A stretch of DNA of 38,761 nucleotides, from positions 1-38,761 of the forward strand of contig VGWI01000016.1 in assembly GCA_016873655.1 (NCBI GenBank). Reading direction: 5' to 3'. Position 1 is the stretch's first letter; each line of letters starts with the position of its first letter. The stretch is from Lentisphaerota bacterium (GTDB taxonomy: Bacteria; Verrucomicrobiota; Kiritimatiellia; UBA8416; VGWI01). Made by a program: the position numbers and the translations under genes. Shown here in pieces: positions 5,445 to 36,341 of this stretch. A model generated the notes under the pieces. That model worked only from the letters and a program-made list of their open reading frames with translations, was not told the origin of the DNA and searched no databases.

Positions 5445-6197
5445 TCATGCCGGCCTCGTTCCCTTGCAGTCCGGGAAGGTGGAACACCCCCAGAAATCGC
5501 CTTTGGCCGACTTGCGACGGCGCATAGGCTTGCCGCACTGCGGGCAGTCGGGGGCGTCCACAGTCTTTTGCCCCTCACGCGCCTCGATGCGCTTGTAACT
5601 CAGCCGCTCGCTGAACCCGCCGGATTCCTCGAAGGTCGCGCCTTGAGCCTCTTTCTGGCGCTTGAGCATCTTGAGGACGCGCCCGATGATGATGAGCATG
5701 GCGTTGGCCACCACCACCGCGTCGCCGGAATCCAGCCAGCGGGCGTACTTCTTGCGCTGTTCCAGAGCGTGCTTGGCCGACTCGTGGACCATGTCGTCGG
5801 CAAACGACGCCTCGTCGAGAGAGATCGCGTTGACCGCCTTGGACTCGGGGTCATGGACCGACCACGGCAAATGGCCGCGGTCGAGGATGAAGATTTCGTA
5901 GTCTCCGCGCAGTTCGCCAAGGCTCGCCCGCGCCACGTCGGTGAGCTTCATCTCGGTGTCTTTGGATGTGGACGATCGCTCCGAGCCCTCGATGATATTC
6001 TGGCGTCCGCTGCGGGCGGCCTGGGTCATCTGGTCGTACTGCCGCCCCTTGGGGTCGTAGAACTTGGCGCCCACCTCACGCGGGTCCGAGGTCAGGAACC
6101 GGCGACAGAACCGCAGTGTGTCGAGCTGCACGATCGTGGCCAGCGTGAAGGAATGCAAGCGGCGAAAGCCGCCGTGCTTGTCGAACAGCTCAGGCAT
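5445..6197 (-). CDS. Four-helix-bundle-suffix protein with C-terminal C4 zinc ribbon
   Basis: 250 residues beginning [20 protein letters not shown], with an AAGGAGG ribosome-binding site. The N-terminal two thirds match the four-helix-bundle-suffix domain family (related to the rRNA intervening-sequence/Avd bundle): [20 protein letters not shown] is the bundle signature near residues 76-95. The C-terminus [20 protein letters not shown], then [13 protein letters not shown], is a topoisomerase-type C4 zinc finger, a nucleic-acid-binding module. It appears intact despite lying beside the hsdR relic. In the wider family such bundles are linked to RNA or mobile elements; a nucleic-acid role is inferred, not shown. 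Confidence 0.85.
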
Positions 6198-31445: not shown

Positions 31446-32330
31446 TTACGTTCGGCAGGGGAACTCCAACTGGCTGTCCCGTGGTGTTTCCGGTTGCCAG
31501 CCGATCCATTCCACGTCGGCCTGTGCGAAGCGCTTCTCCATCACGCGCATAGCCTCGGGGTTGTTGTCCGCCAGTATGCAGCGCCGTCCGTGCGAGATTG
31601 CCGCCTCCCCGAACGACCCGCTGCCGGCGAAGAAATCGAGGAGAAGGTCACCGGGCGCGGAGTGTACCTTCACGATGCGATCGAGAATGCCGCGCGGCTT
31701 CTGGGTGGGATAGCCGGTCTTCTCGCGCCCGTTGGGGCTGACTATCGTGTGCCACCAGGTGTCTGTCGGAGTCTTCCCGGCGGCGGCCTTCTCCGGGCCC
31801 ACAAGGCCCGGCGCCATGTAAGCTATACGGTCGCACTCGGCGAGGTGGAACTGGTAGTCGGCCGGATCCCGCGCGTACCAGAGAATGTTGTCGTGCTTGG
31901 CCGGCCAGCGCGTCTTGCTGCGCGCGCCGTAGTCGTATGCCCAGATTATCTCGTTCATGAACGAGTCGCGGCCGAACACGATGTCGAGCAGGATCTTCGC
32001 GTAGTGGACTTCCCGGTAGTCAATGTGGAAGAAGAAGCTTCCGTTGCCTTTGAGGACGCGCCGCGCTTCCTGCAGGCGCGGTTCGAGAAAAACCAGGTAG
32101 TCGTCGAAGATGTCGGCATACTCCTTCGTGCCGAGCTTGATTGTCCGATACCGCTTCCCCTGGAACCCCGTGCGGTCGCCGCCTTCATCGCACACTGTGG
32201 ACAGGCGTGTCCTGCTCTGGATCTTGCCCGTGTTGAACGGGGGGTCAATATAGATGAGATCCGCCGAGCCGGACGGCAACCCGCGCAGCACATCGAGGTT
32301 ATCGCCAAAATGGATTGTGAGATCAGCCAT
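31446..32330 (-). CDS. Orphan beta-class DNA adenine-N6 methyltransferase
   Basis: 294 residues. Motif IV is DLIYIDPPFNTG (Asp29-Pro-Pro-Phe32) near the N-terminus; motif I is LLLDFFAGSGSFGEAA (about 229-244) at the C-terminal end, and the order IV before I defines the beta class. Between them KLGTKEYADIFDDYLVFLEP and WWHTIVSPNGREKTGYPTQK are typical of Mod-like or solitary N6-adenine methyltransferases. No restriction endonuclease or specificity gene is nearby. Its ATG lies inside the end of the transporter gene (8-base overlap). A regulatory or anti-restriction role is more likely than classical R-M, though a distant partner cannot be excluded. Confidence 0.9.
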   Translation of the reverse strand: MADLTIHFGDNLDVLRGLPSGSADLIYIDPPFNTGKIQSRTRLSTVCDEGGDRTGFQGKRYRTIKLGTKEYADIFDDYLVFLEPRLQEARRVLKGNGSFFFHIDYREVHYAKILLDIVFGRDSFMNEIIWAYDYGARSKTRWPAKHDNILWYARDPADYQFHLAECDRIAYMAPGLVGPEKAAAGKTPTDTWWHTIVSPNGREKTGYPTQKPRGILDRIVKVHSAPGDLLLDFFAGSGSFGEAAISHGRRCILADNNPEAMRVMEKRFAQADVEWIGWQPETPRDSQLEFPCRT

Positions 32331-33636
32331 GCGGATGAGCCGCCTGTGTCGGTCGTTCCGGTTGCAGGTTCAGCGTCGTTCCCCCGCCGTCGCGGTAGCA
32401 TGCGCCCGCGACCGCGCCGGTCATGAGACATGCCAGCGTGGCGGCAAGGAGAGCGCGCGGGCCGACAGAAACCAGGTCAGCCCTTCTTGAAGGCGCCATG
32501 GCCGCCGCTCCCCCGACAAAGACGGCAAGGGAGGCGACATGCGCGAACCCGCACAGTGCATATGAGACGATCACCGCGGAACGAGCGTGGCCCACCCCGC
32601 CGTTGGCAAGCTGCGCGGCCAGGCCCTGGTAGGCCGGTATTTCCGTCATGATGAATCTCTTCCCGAGAAGTGCGCCCGCCCAACCGGCATCGCCGGGCGG
32701 AATGCCCATGGCGATCGCAAACGGGTGAAAGACCCAGCCAAGAACTCTTGTGAGCGTCACCCGGCCGCCTGGCAGAAAACCTGTCGCCGCCCCGAAGATC
32801 ATATCAACCAGCGCAACCAGGCCGAGAAACGCTATCAACACCGCGCAAACCCCTGCCACAAGCCGCGCTCCTGCCATCGCCCCGTTCACGATAGCGTCTA
32901 TCCAGCCCCTGTCCTCGGGATTCCGCGGCACGGTCACGTTCAGGCCAAGCGTTTCGGGCGCTCCGCTCTCCGGAACCAGAAGTTTTGACATTACGAGCGC
33001 GGCCGGCGCGGACATGATCGAGGCTGAGACCATGTGCCCCGCAATCATCGGAAACCGGTCGGCAAGGAACAGGACATACATGCCCATCGTTGACGATGCG
33101 ACAGTGGCCATGCCGGCAGTCAGGATCGTGCACAGCTCGGATCGGGTCATGCGGTCAAGCAGCGGCCGCACCGCCGTTACCGACTCGATTCCGACGAAGA
33201 TATTGCTGGCGACACAGAGACTCTCAGCCCCGCTCACACGCATCAGGCGCGAGAACAGGCGCGCGAAGCAACGGATAATGACCGACATCACCCCGCAGTA
33301 GTAGAGCAGACCCATAAGCGCGGAGAAGAAGATGATTATCGGCAGCGCCTGGGTCGCGAGCACAAATCCGGCGAATCCGGCGTCCGCGAGATTCCCGAAC
33401 AGGAACCGCTGCCCTGCCTGCGCGGCGCCGAGAACCTTCAGGACCGCCTCGTTCGCCAGCAGGAAGACTTTCTGGCTGCCCGGCACAAGGAAGACAAGCG
33501 CGCCAATGGCAAACTGCAGGCCGCATCCCCATGCCACTGTATGCCAGTTGATGTTGCGGCGGTCTTCAGAGAAAGCCCAGGCGACTGACATCATCATGGC
33601 GATCCCGGCAACGCTGACGAGGTTCCACGCGTTCAT
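32323..33636 (-). CDS. Concentrative nucleoside transporter (NupC/CNT family)
   Basis: 437 residues with about 10-13 membrane segments. CNT hallmarks are LPIIIFFSALMGLLYYCGVM, SRLMRVSGAESLCVASNIFV (with the gene-family G-x-E-S/T element), GMATVASSTMGMYVLF and the C-terminal SYALCGFAHVASLAVFVGGA block; the latter contains the nucleoside- and cation-contacting helices. It imports nucleosides with Na+ or H+. The last ~25 residues (NLQPERPTQAAHPHG) are a polar tail. Starts at ATG 33636; the methyltransferase gene begins within its last codons. Confidence 0.92.
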   Translation of the reverse strand: MNAWNLVSVAGIAMMMSVAWAFSEDRRNINWHTVAWGCGLQFAIGALVFLVPGSQKVFLLANEAVLKVLGAAQAGQRFLFGNLADAGFAGFVLATQALPIIIFFSALMGLLYYCGVMSVIIRCFARLFSRLMRVSGAESLCVASNIFVGIESVTAVRPLLDRMTRSELCTILTAGMATVASSTMGMYVLFLADRFPMIAGHMVSASIMSAPAALVMSKLLVPESGAPETLGLNVTVPRNPEDRGWIDAIVNGAMAGARLVAGVCAVLIAFLGLVALVDMIFGAATGFLPGGRVTLTRVLGWVFHPFAIAMGIPPGDAGWAGALLGKRFIMTEIPAYQGLAAQLANGGVGHARSAVIVSYALCGFAHVASLAVFVGGAAAMAPSRRADLVSVGPRALLAATLACLMTGAVAGACYRDGGGTTLNLQPERPTQAAHPHG

Positions 33637-33751
33637 GCGCCAATAATCCGGCCGCCATCCGCGCAGGTCGAGAAAAAGATGGTTCTTCCGAGTTTCCCGG
33701 GTGATTTCTCATTGGCTATTGCGACCGTCAGCGGTATCCGAAGAGATTCGA

Positions 33752-33777
33752 GTGTACGAGTAGGTGTACGAGTACGG
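33752..33777 (+). repeat. 26-base inverted repeat, left copy
   Basis: Made of two 12-base units GTGTACGAGTAG and GTGTACGAGTAC plus GG. It is the exact reverse complement of 34568-34593, so the transcript could close a 26-bp stem around the four-helix-bundle gene. Confidence 0.95.
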
Positions 33778-33796
33778 TGTTTACTTTCCACGAACC

Positions 33797-34558
33797 CTAT
33801 TCTTCCTCCAGGCTTCGTCCCCACGCTACGAGCATGCGCACAATATCGGCGAGGTGCTTCTTGCCCGCGACTACAGCCTGCTTGCTCTTCGTCTGTTGCA
33901 CGGCGTGAACATCAAGAGTGGCTGCCGCCTGTAGCGCTGCGGTTCGCGCGTGGCCAATGAAGCGACACCGATCCTTCGCGGAGAACTTACCGTTGCCCTC
34001 AGCAATATTCAGAGCCACGCCTGTCGATGCCCGGTCCAGCGCCGTCACCGTTGAACAAGGCATTTCGCCGTCATTCCGCAACCGGCCACACCAAGCAACG
34101 AATTCCAGAGCCTTGCGGTAGACATCCAGTCTCTCGTGGTCAAACCACACTTGCGTGCCTTCATGCCCGGCGGTTACGTATGCCACCCTCTCCTCATGCA
34201 CCTCGCTGCCGGTCGACTTCCGAAAGCCGATCAGCATAGATACAAGCGTTGAGAGACGCGCCTTGCCGGCATGAACCGTCGCGGCCTGTAGGCACCCCAG
34301 AATGCACAGCACGTCAAGACAGGCGGCACATTCCAGCGAGGAGCCGTAGGCGGTGTCTATGAACTGGCGACATTCGCTCATCGAGCGTTTCCCGCTGGCC
34401 TGCGCGATGTTCACCGGCACGCCGGCGGAAGCCCTGCCGAGATGATCACAGGCCGACACCTTGCTTGTGATCTCCGGGGCCACTTCTCCGTGCCACGCCA
34501 CAAACTCAATGGCCGCCTGATACACTCTCAGGTCCTCATGGTCGAATCCTGATCTCAT
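33797..34558 (-). CDS. Tandem four-helix-bundle protein (23S rRNA intervening-sequence type)
   Basis: 253 residues containing two copies of the four-helix-bundle family (rRNA IVS protein/Avd-like). Copy 1 (about 5-115) starts FDHEDLRVYQAAIEFVAW and has GRASAGVPVNIAQASGKRSM; copy 2 (about 139-253) starts FDHERLDVYRKALEFVAW and has DRASTGVALNIAEGNGKFSA, the family signature N-I-A-E-G-x-G-K/R. A 20-residue linker joins them. Single-bundle versions normally form pentamers and bind nucleic acid. The start at 34558 is used because homology begins there; upstream codons run through the repeat DNA and would encode RVRVGVRVR. The gene lies between perfect 26-base inverted repeats. Confidence 0.88.
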   Translation of the reverse strand: MRSGFDHEDLRVYQAAIEFVAWHGEVAPEITSKVSACDHLGRASAGVPVNIAQASGKRSMSECRQFIDTAYGSSLECAACLDVLCILGCLQAATVHAGKARLSTLVSMLIGFRKSTGSEVHEERVAYVTAGHEGTQVWFDHERLDVYRKALEFVAWCGRLRNDGEMPCSTVTALDRASTGVALNIAEGNGKFSAKDRCRFIGHARTAALQAAATLDVHAVQQTKSKQAVVAGKKHLADIVRMLVAWGRSLEEE

Positions 34559-34567
34559 CACGGAATC

Positions 34568-34593
34568 CCGTACTCGTACACCTACTCGTACAC
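34568..34593 (+). repeat. 26-base inverted repeat, right copy
   Basis: Exact reverse complement of 33752-33777, ending ten bases upstream of the four-helix-bundle start codon on the minus strand. The bases outside the two copies differ. Confidence 0.95.
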
Positions 34594-34829
34594 GCCTATC
34601 TCCCCATGCTTCGGCACATTTCCCGATAGAAAATGCCCCGCTAACCCCGGAGGCGCCGAAAAAGATGGGGTTCGCCGCCCCGCCCGGTCTGGCCGCCCTG
34701 TACGCACCCGCGCGGCTTTCTCCCGAGAAACCAGACACAGGCGCGTTTCCGGAGACAGACTCAACGCGTCGCCTGATCGCCGGCGCTGCTGCATCGCGCG
34801 ATCCTTGCGATTACCCGTTGAGCACACGG

Positions 34830-36341
34830 TTAAGGGCCACGCATTCCTATGATGAACACCGCGCCGCGAGCGCCCCACGAGCCGGTCTCGTTTGCGCCGC
34901 CGGGGCTGCCGCAGTCACCCGCTTCGCCCTGGTAGCCGGGCAACCGCTCCGCCGCAACAATCCAGTTCGCCGGATCGTTAGGGTCGGCGGAGGGATCGCT
35001 CAGGCACAGAGATCTGCCGGCGCCGGACTGCCAGCCTGTCCCCTCTCCGCCATACTCGACAATGCACGCAACACCGCCGCCCGGATCAAGAAGCAGGAGT
35101 TCATCCTGCGCGTTCGCCAACTGGAAATCGAACGCGCTGCCCCAGTCACACTCAACCGGAACTCCGCCGTTCGTGTCGGGATCGGCATTCACGCCGAGAA
35201 CCACGAAGCCGCCCGCCGGAACCGTGAGCGGGCCGGCTATGAAACATCGATCCGTGCCGAGATCGCCTATTGACCATCCGCCGATATCCACGTCGCTTTC
35301 GCCGCGGTTGTAGATCTCCAGCCATTCGCCGTTGTTGTCGGCAACCGCGGCCGGGTCGCACATGAACTCGCTTATCACCAGCGGCCCGGCGCCGCCGTAC
35401 GCCATCCTCCTGATGATCGCCACACCGGCATCGGCCTCGCCCATGCCGTTGGTGCCCGTCACCATCAGCACGTTCGTCCCGACTTCAAGCGGCGCATTGA
35501 ATGACCATTCATGTCCGGCATCACACACGCCGGCCGCCCCGGTAAAACGGTTGCTCCAGGATATCGTGCCGGCTATCTCCGCGTTTGCCGAGCCGCGCAC
35601 GGTTGCGTATTCGATCGCGTTCCCTACCCATGGCATTCCTGAGGGCTCTTCGACGGTCAGCATCGGAACGGCCGCGCCGACCGAGAAGTCTGTCGAGTCG
35701 AGCGACAGCGCGCCGGTATTGTCGAAAGTCCAGTTCGCCGCATTCAGGACTGCGGCACGCAGGTCTCCGGCTGAGCCGGCGCGTTTGCCCGAATACTGAC
35801 CATTGTCGGCATGCCGAAATGCAAGGTTCCCGCCCGGCGCGGACAATGGCGGCGGCAGGGCCGATGTGCTTGCGCTCGACGCATCCGGGTCCCATGCGCG
35901 GTCAGCGCCGTTGAAGTCCAGCCCGAACACGAGACTGCACGTCGCGTTCGTGATGAAGACCTGGTCGCCTTCCGTAGAGAGCCCGAAAGCGCCGGAACGC
36001 TGCACCGTGCCGGTATCACAGCCTGCTCCGGCCGAGTCCTGCAGGTTCGTGAGGACCACAACACTTCCAGCACGGAGCCCGTCAGCCGGCGCGGTCCAAC
36101 ACACACAGCCTTCGCCGCTTCTGAACCCGCCGGCCGAAAGCCAGCCGGAATCCGTGAACACCAGGTCCGTTCCGCCGGGCAGGTTCGTCCAGGTTACGAA
36201 GGCGATGCAGTCGGGTTGAGCCGACCTGTAACCGACAATCTGAACATCCCCCACCTCCAACGCCGCCAGAGCAGAAGAGGGCACGAGCGGAACAACCGCA
36301 ATGGCGATAGCAAGAAACAGAGCTCCACAGTTCCGCACCAT
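34830..36341 (-). CDS. Secreted protein with C-terminal lamin-tail domain
   Basis: 503 residues. A signal peptide (1 to about 27, LAIAIAVVPLVPSSALA) leads to an N-terminal beta-rich domain (about 30-150) with GTDLVFTDSGWLSAGGF and GEGCVCWTAPADGL, a type of repeat found in exported PVC and Bacteroidota proteins. A central region (about 225-310) resembles an Ig-like fold, and a lamin-tail domain (about 315-425) carries VISEFMCDPAAVADNNGEWL and EIYNRGESDVDIGGWSIGDL. Lamin-tail domains occur in secreted and surface proteins, often beside nucleases or hydrolases. GGGGGG upstream of ATG 36341 sets the start. No catalytic residues are evident, and no sorting tail is recognised. Confidence 0.85.
   Translation of the reverse strand: MVRNCGALFLAIAIAVVPLVPSSALAALEVGDVQIVGYRSAQPDCIAFVTWTNLPGGTDLVFTDSGWLSAGGFRSGEGCVCWTAPADGLRAGSVVVLTNLQDSAGAGCDTGTVQRSGAFGLSTEGDQVFITNATCSLVFGLDFNGADRAWDPDASSASTSALPPPLSAPGGNLAFRHADNGQYSGKRAGSAGDLRAAVLNAANWTFDNTGALSLDSTDFSVGAAVPMLTVEEPSGMPWVGNAIEYATVRGSANAEIAGTISWSNRFTGAAGVCDAGHEWSFNAPLEVGTNVLMVTGTNGMGEADAGVAIIRRMAYGGAGPLVISEFMCDPAAVADNNGEWLEIYNRGESDVDIGGWSIGDLGTDRCFIAGPLTVPAGGFVVLGVNADPDTNGGVPVECDWGSAFDFQLANAQDELLLLDPGGGVACIVEYGGEGTGWQSGAGRSLCLSDPSADPNDPANWIVAAERLPGYQGEAGDCGSPGGANETGSWGARGAVFIIGMRGP

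Follow-up and report, generated by a model that had tools for sequence, protein, structure and literature searches.

A gene for two fused four-helix bundles, framed by inverted repeats at a site outside rRNA, raises the question of what kind of element it belongs to, and whether that element inserts as DNA or works through its RNA. The gene lies in the window, that is, the whole stretch of 38,761 nucleotides analysed here (contig VGWI01000016.1 of a Lentisphaerota bacterium), and it is a member of PF05635, which, outside model organisms, ranks among the most common families whose function is unknown. To our knowledge, the family had been known in two settings only, in insertions within rRNA and through its kinship with Avd.

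The bundle gene and its inner arms

Perfect inverted repeats of 26 bases had been described in a sequence-only reading at 33752-33777 and 34568-34593, each arm being composed of two 12-mers, GTGTACGAGTA(G/C), and both the positions and the composition hold. The arms extend to 35 nt, 33743-33777 on the plus strand (left) and 34568-34602 on the minus strand (right), and over this length they are 91% complementary, enclosing the perfect 26-nt pair, for which, at a spacing of 790 nt, a chance origin is ruled out. The 11-mer of the arm unit has 20 exact occurrences in the assembly of 3.08 Mb, mainly as tandem pairs and in several cases inverted, against 3 occurrences of the reversed control. On the inward strand of the arm, GTGTACGAGTAGGTGTACGAGTACGG, G is far above C, and the inverted repeats closely adjoin the gene on either side, two traits shared with the cassette family described below; the repeat score is 55 (family threshold 28) and the array unit is 12 nt, not the 7 nt of the heptamer STRR/SSR.

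The arms enclose one CDS and nothing else, as the same reading had it, at 33797-34558 on the minus strand, with 253 amino acids counted from the ATG; the right arm begins 9 bp upstream of this start codon, and the longest ORF, with a GTG start, reaches 34738. The profile matches two stretches of the product to PF05635/TIGR02436, an N-terminal bundle (34229-34537, minus strand) and a C-terminal one (33827-34135, minus strand). The fold is known through 2GSC (XCC0516 of X. campestris), the sole sequence relative of the gene in the PDB, and a reference quoted in PMC10053308 gives XCC0516 as a pentamer of four-helix bundles. No relatives of P0001 were found in phage records. The neighbours of the element are a nucleoside transporter gene and a gene for an LTD-domain protein, and a stand-alone N6/N4 DNA methylase gene (PF01555) lies two genes away, at 31446-32330.

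An outer layer of ISL3 type

The unit had been put at 842 bases, which is wrong: the sequence common to the other genomic copies, located with a search sequence in which both ends of the window element were combined, spans 33681-34657, or 977 bp. A 9-bp direct repeat, GAAAAAGAT, a putative target duplication, borders this element on both sides (33672-33680 and 34658-34666). Its left end (33681-33714, plus strand) agrees at 28 of 34 nt with an end of the ISL3 element found on contig C129, and its right end (34622-34657, minus strand), which reads GGCGCCTCCGGGGTTAGCGGGG... inward, is similar to the same ISL3 end, but more weakly than the left. The C129 element runs from 3702 to about 5062 in L078, has terminal repeats of 34-49 nt and contains an ORF for an ISL3 transposase (PF01610, E=3.5e-64). 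Taken together, the likeness of the left end and the identity of this ORF make the outer layer of the window copy, judged by its ends, a non-autonomous ISL3-type element, for which the C129 element is a candidate mover. The window copy as a whole is an ISL3-type non-autonomous element carrying a member of an IVS-like cassette family.

ISL3 elements generate target duplications of 8 bp. This length is found at the copy on contig C148, which has the 8-bp direct repeat CTCTTTTT on either side, while the window copy shows 9 bp. The C148 copy keeps the same left and right ends, which are best preserved as a pair there, in 263 bp from which nearly the whole gene has been deleted internally. Two further contigs (C156 and C165) end inside the left end of the element, two others (C177 and C108) carry right ends, and all copies share the termini GG..CTTCCGGG. 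On two contigs (L048, 3180-3290, and L049, 1340-1430), a right end of the window element sits in a nearly identical larger repeat (GGGGTAGGGGCAG...), with two 12-mers in one case and one in the other. Repeats elsewhere without the gene had been named beforehand as speaking against a mobile unit; 12-mer hairpins do occur gene-less, on C101 and C148, and they enter the account as a correction to it. Those on C101 are also devoid of the ISL3-type outer ends.

Array-flanked PF05635 genes in other genomes

The genome has 13 matches to PF05635, and 52 of 57 relatives have the family. Inverted repeats of short units surround each of the other short PF05635 genes here (on C42, C85, C43, C28, C21 and C180), with units that differ from gene to gene (GTGCGTAGTGCTTG, ATCGGG, GGGATGAT, GGTGGAGTAAGC, TTGAAAG and others). 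If a gene is called armed when its flanking inverted repeat scores at least 28, six of the seven short genes, including the window copy, are armed, and the one on C43 scores 25. Arrays are absent around the Avd-like gene beside the reverse transcriptase (C50) and around two longer variants (C88 and C16:5895). The latter two, at 7422-7628 of C88 and 5895-6035 of the window, encode longer proteins that match PF05635 weakly and only in part, and belong to a different, arm-less branch of the family.

In the same class, 71 of 95 PF05635 genes are armed, compared with 5 of 320 control ORFs of the same loci (Fisher p=2e-52); arms given a wrong partner reach the score in 1.3% of cases, or in 0.3% when this partner comes from the same genome, and only 11/95 genes reach it in direct orientation. 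A GTDB-wide scan of loci from many phyla gave a similar picture (59/80 armed against 6/240 controls, p=3e-39), as did plasmid loci (16 of 17, from Cyanobacteria, Gemmatimonadota and an Azospirillum plasmid) and a Xanthomonas-like family with three other genomes (37/40). Armed genes are thus found in at least twelve phyla, the loci being best matches to family profiles or consensus, so that the armed fraction holds for typical members; in about a quarter of PF05635 genes, arms are undetectable. The arrangement of array, gene and array is a general property of the PF05635 gene family. Bundle genes with flanking repeats, for which a search in other genomes had been proposed, are common there, and the repeat sequence is each gene's own in nearly every case.

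Of 144 armed elements, 96 have units of 7 or 14 nt and 37 have units of 8 nt; G exceeds C on the inward strand in 136, and CAG/TAG steps are enriched in the arrays. Only proteins above about 60% identity have array sequence in common, and yet within each element the arms match one another, which implies that arms change fast and together. Arrays follow the protein tree only above the same level, and co-evolution below it is weak; such tracking may hint, weakly, at specific recognition of array by protein.

The siting of the elements is also characteristic. Both neighbours are co-directional with the gene in 82 of 110 elements and in 40 of 90 controls (p=2e-5), the 5' arm starts at a median of 6 bp after the stop codon upstream, and 17 bp separate the 3' arm from the start codon that follows. 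The orientation and distance data come from crude ORF calls, and the stop-codon distances are partly circular because the arrays themselves carry stop codons, a circularity from which the empty sites described next are independent.

Empty and filled sites

Comparison of empty with filled sites had been suggested as a check on mobility, and three occupied/empty pairs were found on cyanobacterial plasmids. Locus A is filled in Trichormus and Scytonema and empty in Fremyella (Microchaete) and Nostoc linckia, with flanks 97-98% identical; the insertion starts directly after the upstream stop codon, and plasmid E of Nostoc C052 has a truncated remnant at this locus in which the array is retained. 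Locus B is filled in Nostoc C052 and N. edaphicum, empty in Nostoc C057 and UHCC 0926, and occupied in ATCC 53789 by an array pair without the gene. Locus C is filled on two plasmids of Calothrix brevissima and empty in Tolypothrix, Aulosira, Nodularia and N. carneum, its insertion point being also at a stop codon. Furthermore, the gene family of locus A occurs with its arrays at unrelated sites, the Aulosira and Trichormus ORFs being 82% identical and their flanks unrelated.

These occupied and empty pairs, together with the remnant and the gene-less pair, establish that array-gene-array is an insertion element in its own right. The mobility suggested for the window locus is supported at two levels, by copies with direct repeats in this genome and by the three empty/filled pairs for the family in general. 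A general search for target duplications outside the arms gave the same result as the control; for this reason, the 8-nt GTAATTAA/GTAATAAA seen at locus A may be a coincidence. At locus B (L183 against L182) the ORF is 99.7% identical and the adjoining left flank 76%. A similar peak is seen in another pair that shares a site (L333 against L324), with the element at 97%, well above the adjoining flanks. An element more alike than its flanks resembles homing with co-conversion, which is a possible reading of these two cases.

An arrayed bundle gene also lies between cas6 and cas4 in the plasmid type I-D CRISPR operons of Pseudanabaena galeata (L181, 2489-2848) and Anabaena sp. 90 (L186, 2483-2851), with arrays that differ between the two. 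Extra genes annotated as "four helix bundle protein" in operon spacers, such as those of type I-D CRISPR operons, find an explanation in cassettes of this kind.

Two nested layers as the probable explanation, and its competitors

The observed arms, their generality, the empty sites, the gene-less derivatives, the nesting and the copies are probably best accounted for by two nested mobile layers, an array-gene-array cassette (33743-34602) inside a non-autonomous ISL3-type element (33681-34657). The inner cassette would insert, without a conserved target duplication, in short spacers between co-directional genes, directly after the stop codon, and cassettes would lose the gene over time, so that array pairs or single arrays remain. 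The outer element, peculiar to the window copy, has spread in the genome and would be movable in trans by an ISL3 transposase. Since the cassette encodes the bundle protein alone and no recombinase, this protein is the only encoded candidate for a mobility factor: as an oligomer, it might bind the arms as DNA and join the ends, with host replication or repair enzymes completing the insertion. The concerted change of the arms could then arise if, with the ends paired, one arm served as the template for the other.

The explanation that comes closest to competing, and which we regard as unlikely, is that the arms form an RNA stem as in the 23S rRNA IVS, so that the transcript folds, RNase III cuts it and the insertion is tolerated in operon transcripts. 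The sequence-only reading had seen in this locus an architecture like that of the IVS at a non-rRNA site, and this description stands: inverted arms frame a PF05635 gene, and no Rfam match was found in 33000-35500. The combination of gene family and inverted stem is indeed that of the rRNA IVS (PMC4990558), the elements are co-directional in operons, and in the fold of the window element's minus-strand RNA the arms pair with each other (z -3.3). Folding of this sort, however, is expected of any long inverted repeat, the excess of G read inward in both arms is identical on either strand and requires no RNA, and the window element lies outside rRNA. A further point concerns the mismatches between arms, which in 144 elements are of G.U type, tolerable in an RNA stem, in 127 cases and of A.C type, not tolerable there, in 137 (p=0.58), so that G.U is not in excess; this speaks against selection for an IVS-like RNA stem, favours a process at the DNA level and gives no support to the suggestion that the element is RNA-based. 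The best reading is a family of IVS-like mobile cassettes outside rRNA that insert as DNA.

It is less probable that mobility belongs to the ISL3-type element alone, with the bundle gene and its arms as a mere passenger whose own role is stationary and unrelated. Every clear dispersed copy of the long sequence in this genome does have ISL3-type outer ends, but the same 12-mer hairpins occur on C101 without them, and cassettes elsewhere are devoid of ISL3 ends and yet have clean empty sites, by which this explanation is largely refuted for the family. We give equally little credit to the proposal that the arms are operators or expression signals (for autoregulation, or for control of translation or termination) of an ordinary gene that is vertically inherited and lost. 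Start and stop codons are indeed no more than tens of bases away from the arms, and heptamer arrays have been taken as regulatory sites in published work (PMC4679880), but gene and arrays recur at unrelated sites, the empty sites are precise, the unit sequences differ among paralogues of one genome and gene-less pairs exist.

The least probable of the explanations is that a reverse transcriptase, in the manner of a diversity-generating retroelement (DGR), or a Y1 transposase of the REP-associated kind acts in trans to move the cassettes: the bundle fold of PF05635 is homologous with that of Avd (PMC10053308), a DGR-type reverse transcriptase stands beside an Avd-like gene in this genome and short palindromic derivatives look like REPINs, but this Avd-like gene is arm-less, G045 (97% complete, 18 PF05635 copies) and many other genomes have no PF00078 match, and the relation of copy number to reverse transcriptase is not significant (p=0.09). 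Dependence on either enzyme is rejected, as armed cassettes occur in G039 (95% complete) and G054 (94%), which have neither a reverse transcriptase nor Y1_Tnp, although these may be old insertions whose mover is gone. The lead to Avd given by the sequence-only reading thus stands as homology and goes no further. The only reverse transcriptase of the genome adjoins the Avd-like PF05635 gene at about 6101-7262 of L168 (C50), and the two are probably, from their arrangement, the diversity-generating retroelement of this genome.

With the nested reading retained, a wider proposal can be put forward tentatively, and we hold it to be less probable than that reading: the cassettes could form a class of mobile DNA of their own, spread over at least 12 phyla, with no known recombinase, with array ends that change fast and in concert, homing behind stop codons, giving rise to G-rich heptamers and having the bundle oligomer as mobility protein. 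Should the bundle protein turn out to drive mobility, this would be a categorically new class.

Relation to published heptamer repeats

Reports of heptamer repeats in cyanobacteria, xanthomonads, Beggiatoaceae and Bacteroidetes go back to the 1990s, and the repeats are unexplained. Those of Xanthomonas, GGGAATC, can form G-quadruplexes, are of unexplained origin and often come in inverted pairs; they are placed on the sense strand near stop codons and on the antisense strand before the next start, among co-directional ORFs, and the Nostoc heptamer is GGGGA(C/T)T (PMC4692102). In Beggiatoaceae, TAACTGA arrays precede start codons (PMC4679880).

When an even sample of Gammaproteobacteria was screened for GGGAATC repeats, one genome (G426) was obtained, and its sole PF05635 gene, apparently frameshifted, has GGGAATC arrays on both sides and lies behind a stop codon (L304, 1450-1920). 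To judge from genes recognised by eye, this decayed gene is apparently situated between accB and accC. Short inverted GGGAATC pairs without the gene are found elsewhere in the same genome (L299 and L302, near 1500 in both). The taxonomic family of G426 has a PF05635 gene in 69 of 198 genomes, with arms at nearly all of 30 loci examined, several of them of the GGGAATC or GGGATTC type. Solitary heptamer arrays look like derivatives of the cassette, and the TAACTGA arrays, which match the 3' arms in place and polarity, would be cassette remnants as well; the cassette family may thus be the explanation of 7-base repeat arrays in many bacteria.

The PF05635 gene and the heptamer repeats are in this way joined as the inside and the ends of one mobile cassette, which makes it possible to test directly, in laboratory cyanobacteria or Flavobacterium, what the protein does, how the repeats arose and what may be a new mechanism of insertion. 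No paper joining the PF05635 gene with the arrays was found in the open-access literature, and the family is apparently undescribed so far, although an earlier description outside open access is possible.

Comparison with known systems

The 23S rRNA IVS with an S23/PF05635 ORF, known from Leptospira and Coxiella, is regarded as selfish (PMC4990558). Like the cassettes, it has one small PF05635 gene inside an inverted-repeat stem, and the window element shares with it both the closing stem and the ORF. The cassette arms differ in being arrays of 7-8 nt units (12 nt in the window) that change from copy to copy, and the cassettes lie outside rRNA, in the spacer behind a stop codon, with no selection for RNA pairing seen; given its location outside 23S rRNA, the window element is not an rRNA IVS in the strict sense.

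ISL3-family MITEs and other non-autonomous elements resemble the window element in their outer ends, direct repeats of 8-9 bp, an internally deleted copy and a transposase elsewhere in the genome, whereas the window element carries in addition a bundle cassette with inner arms of its own. Compared with the Avd of DGRs, the cassette has no reverse transcriptase, TR or VR, and none adjoins the bundle gene of the window. The REPIN/RAYT systems likewise combine short, paired palindromic derivatives between genes with one gene-bearing form, but the cassettes can do without a Y1 transposase and their units are tandem heptamers, not GTAG-tagged palindromes. Strictly taken, the window element is neither a DGR nor a REPIN system.

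Finally, the heptameric STRs of Xanthomonas, Nostoc and Beggiatoaceae and the cyanobacterial STRR share with the cassettes their 7-nt units, G-rich polarity and inverted pairs. The papers that describe them name no gene, whereas the arrays described here form the two ends of a cassette with a gene inside.
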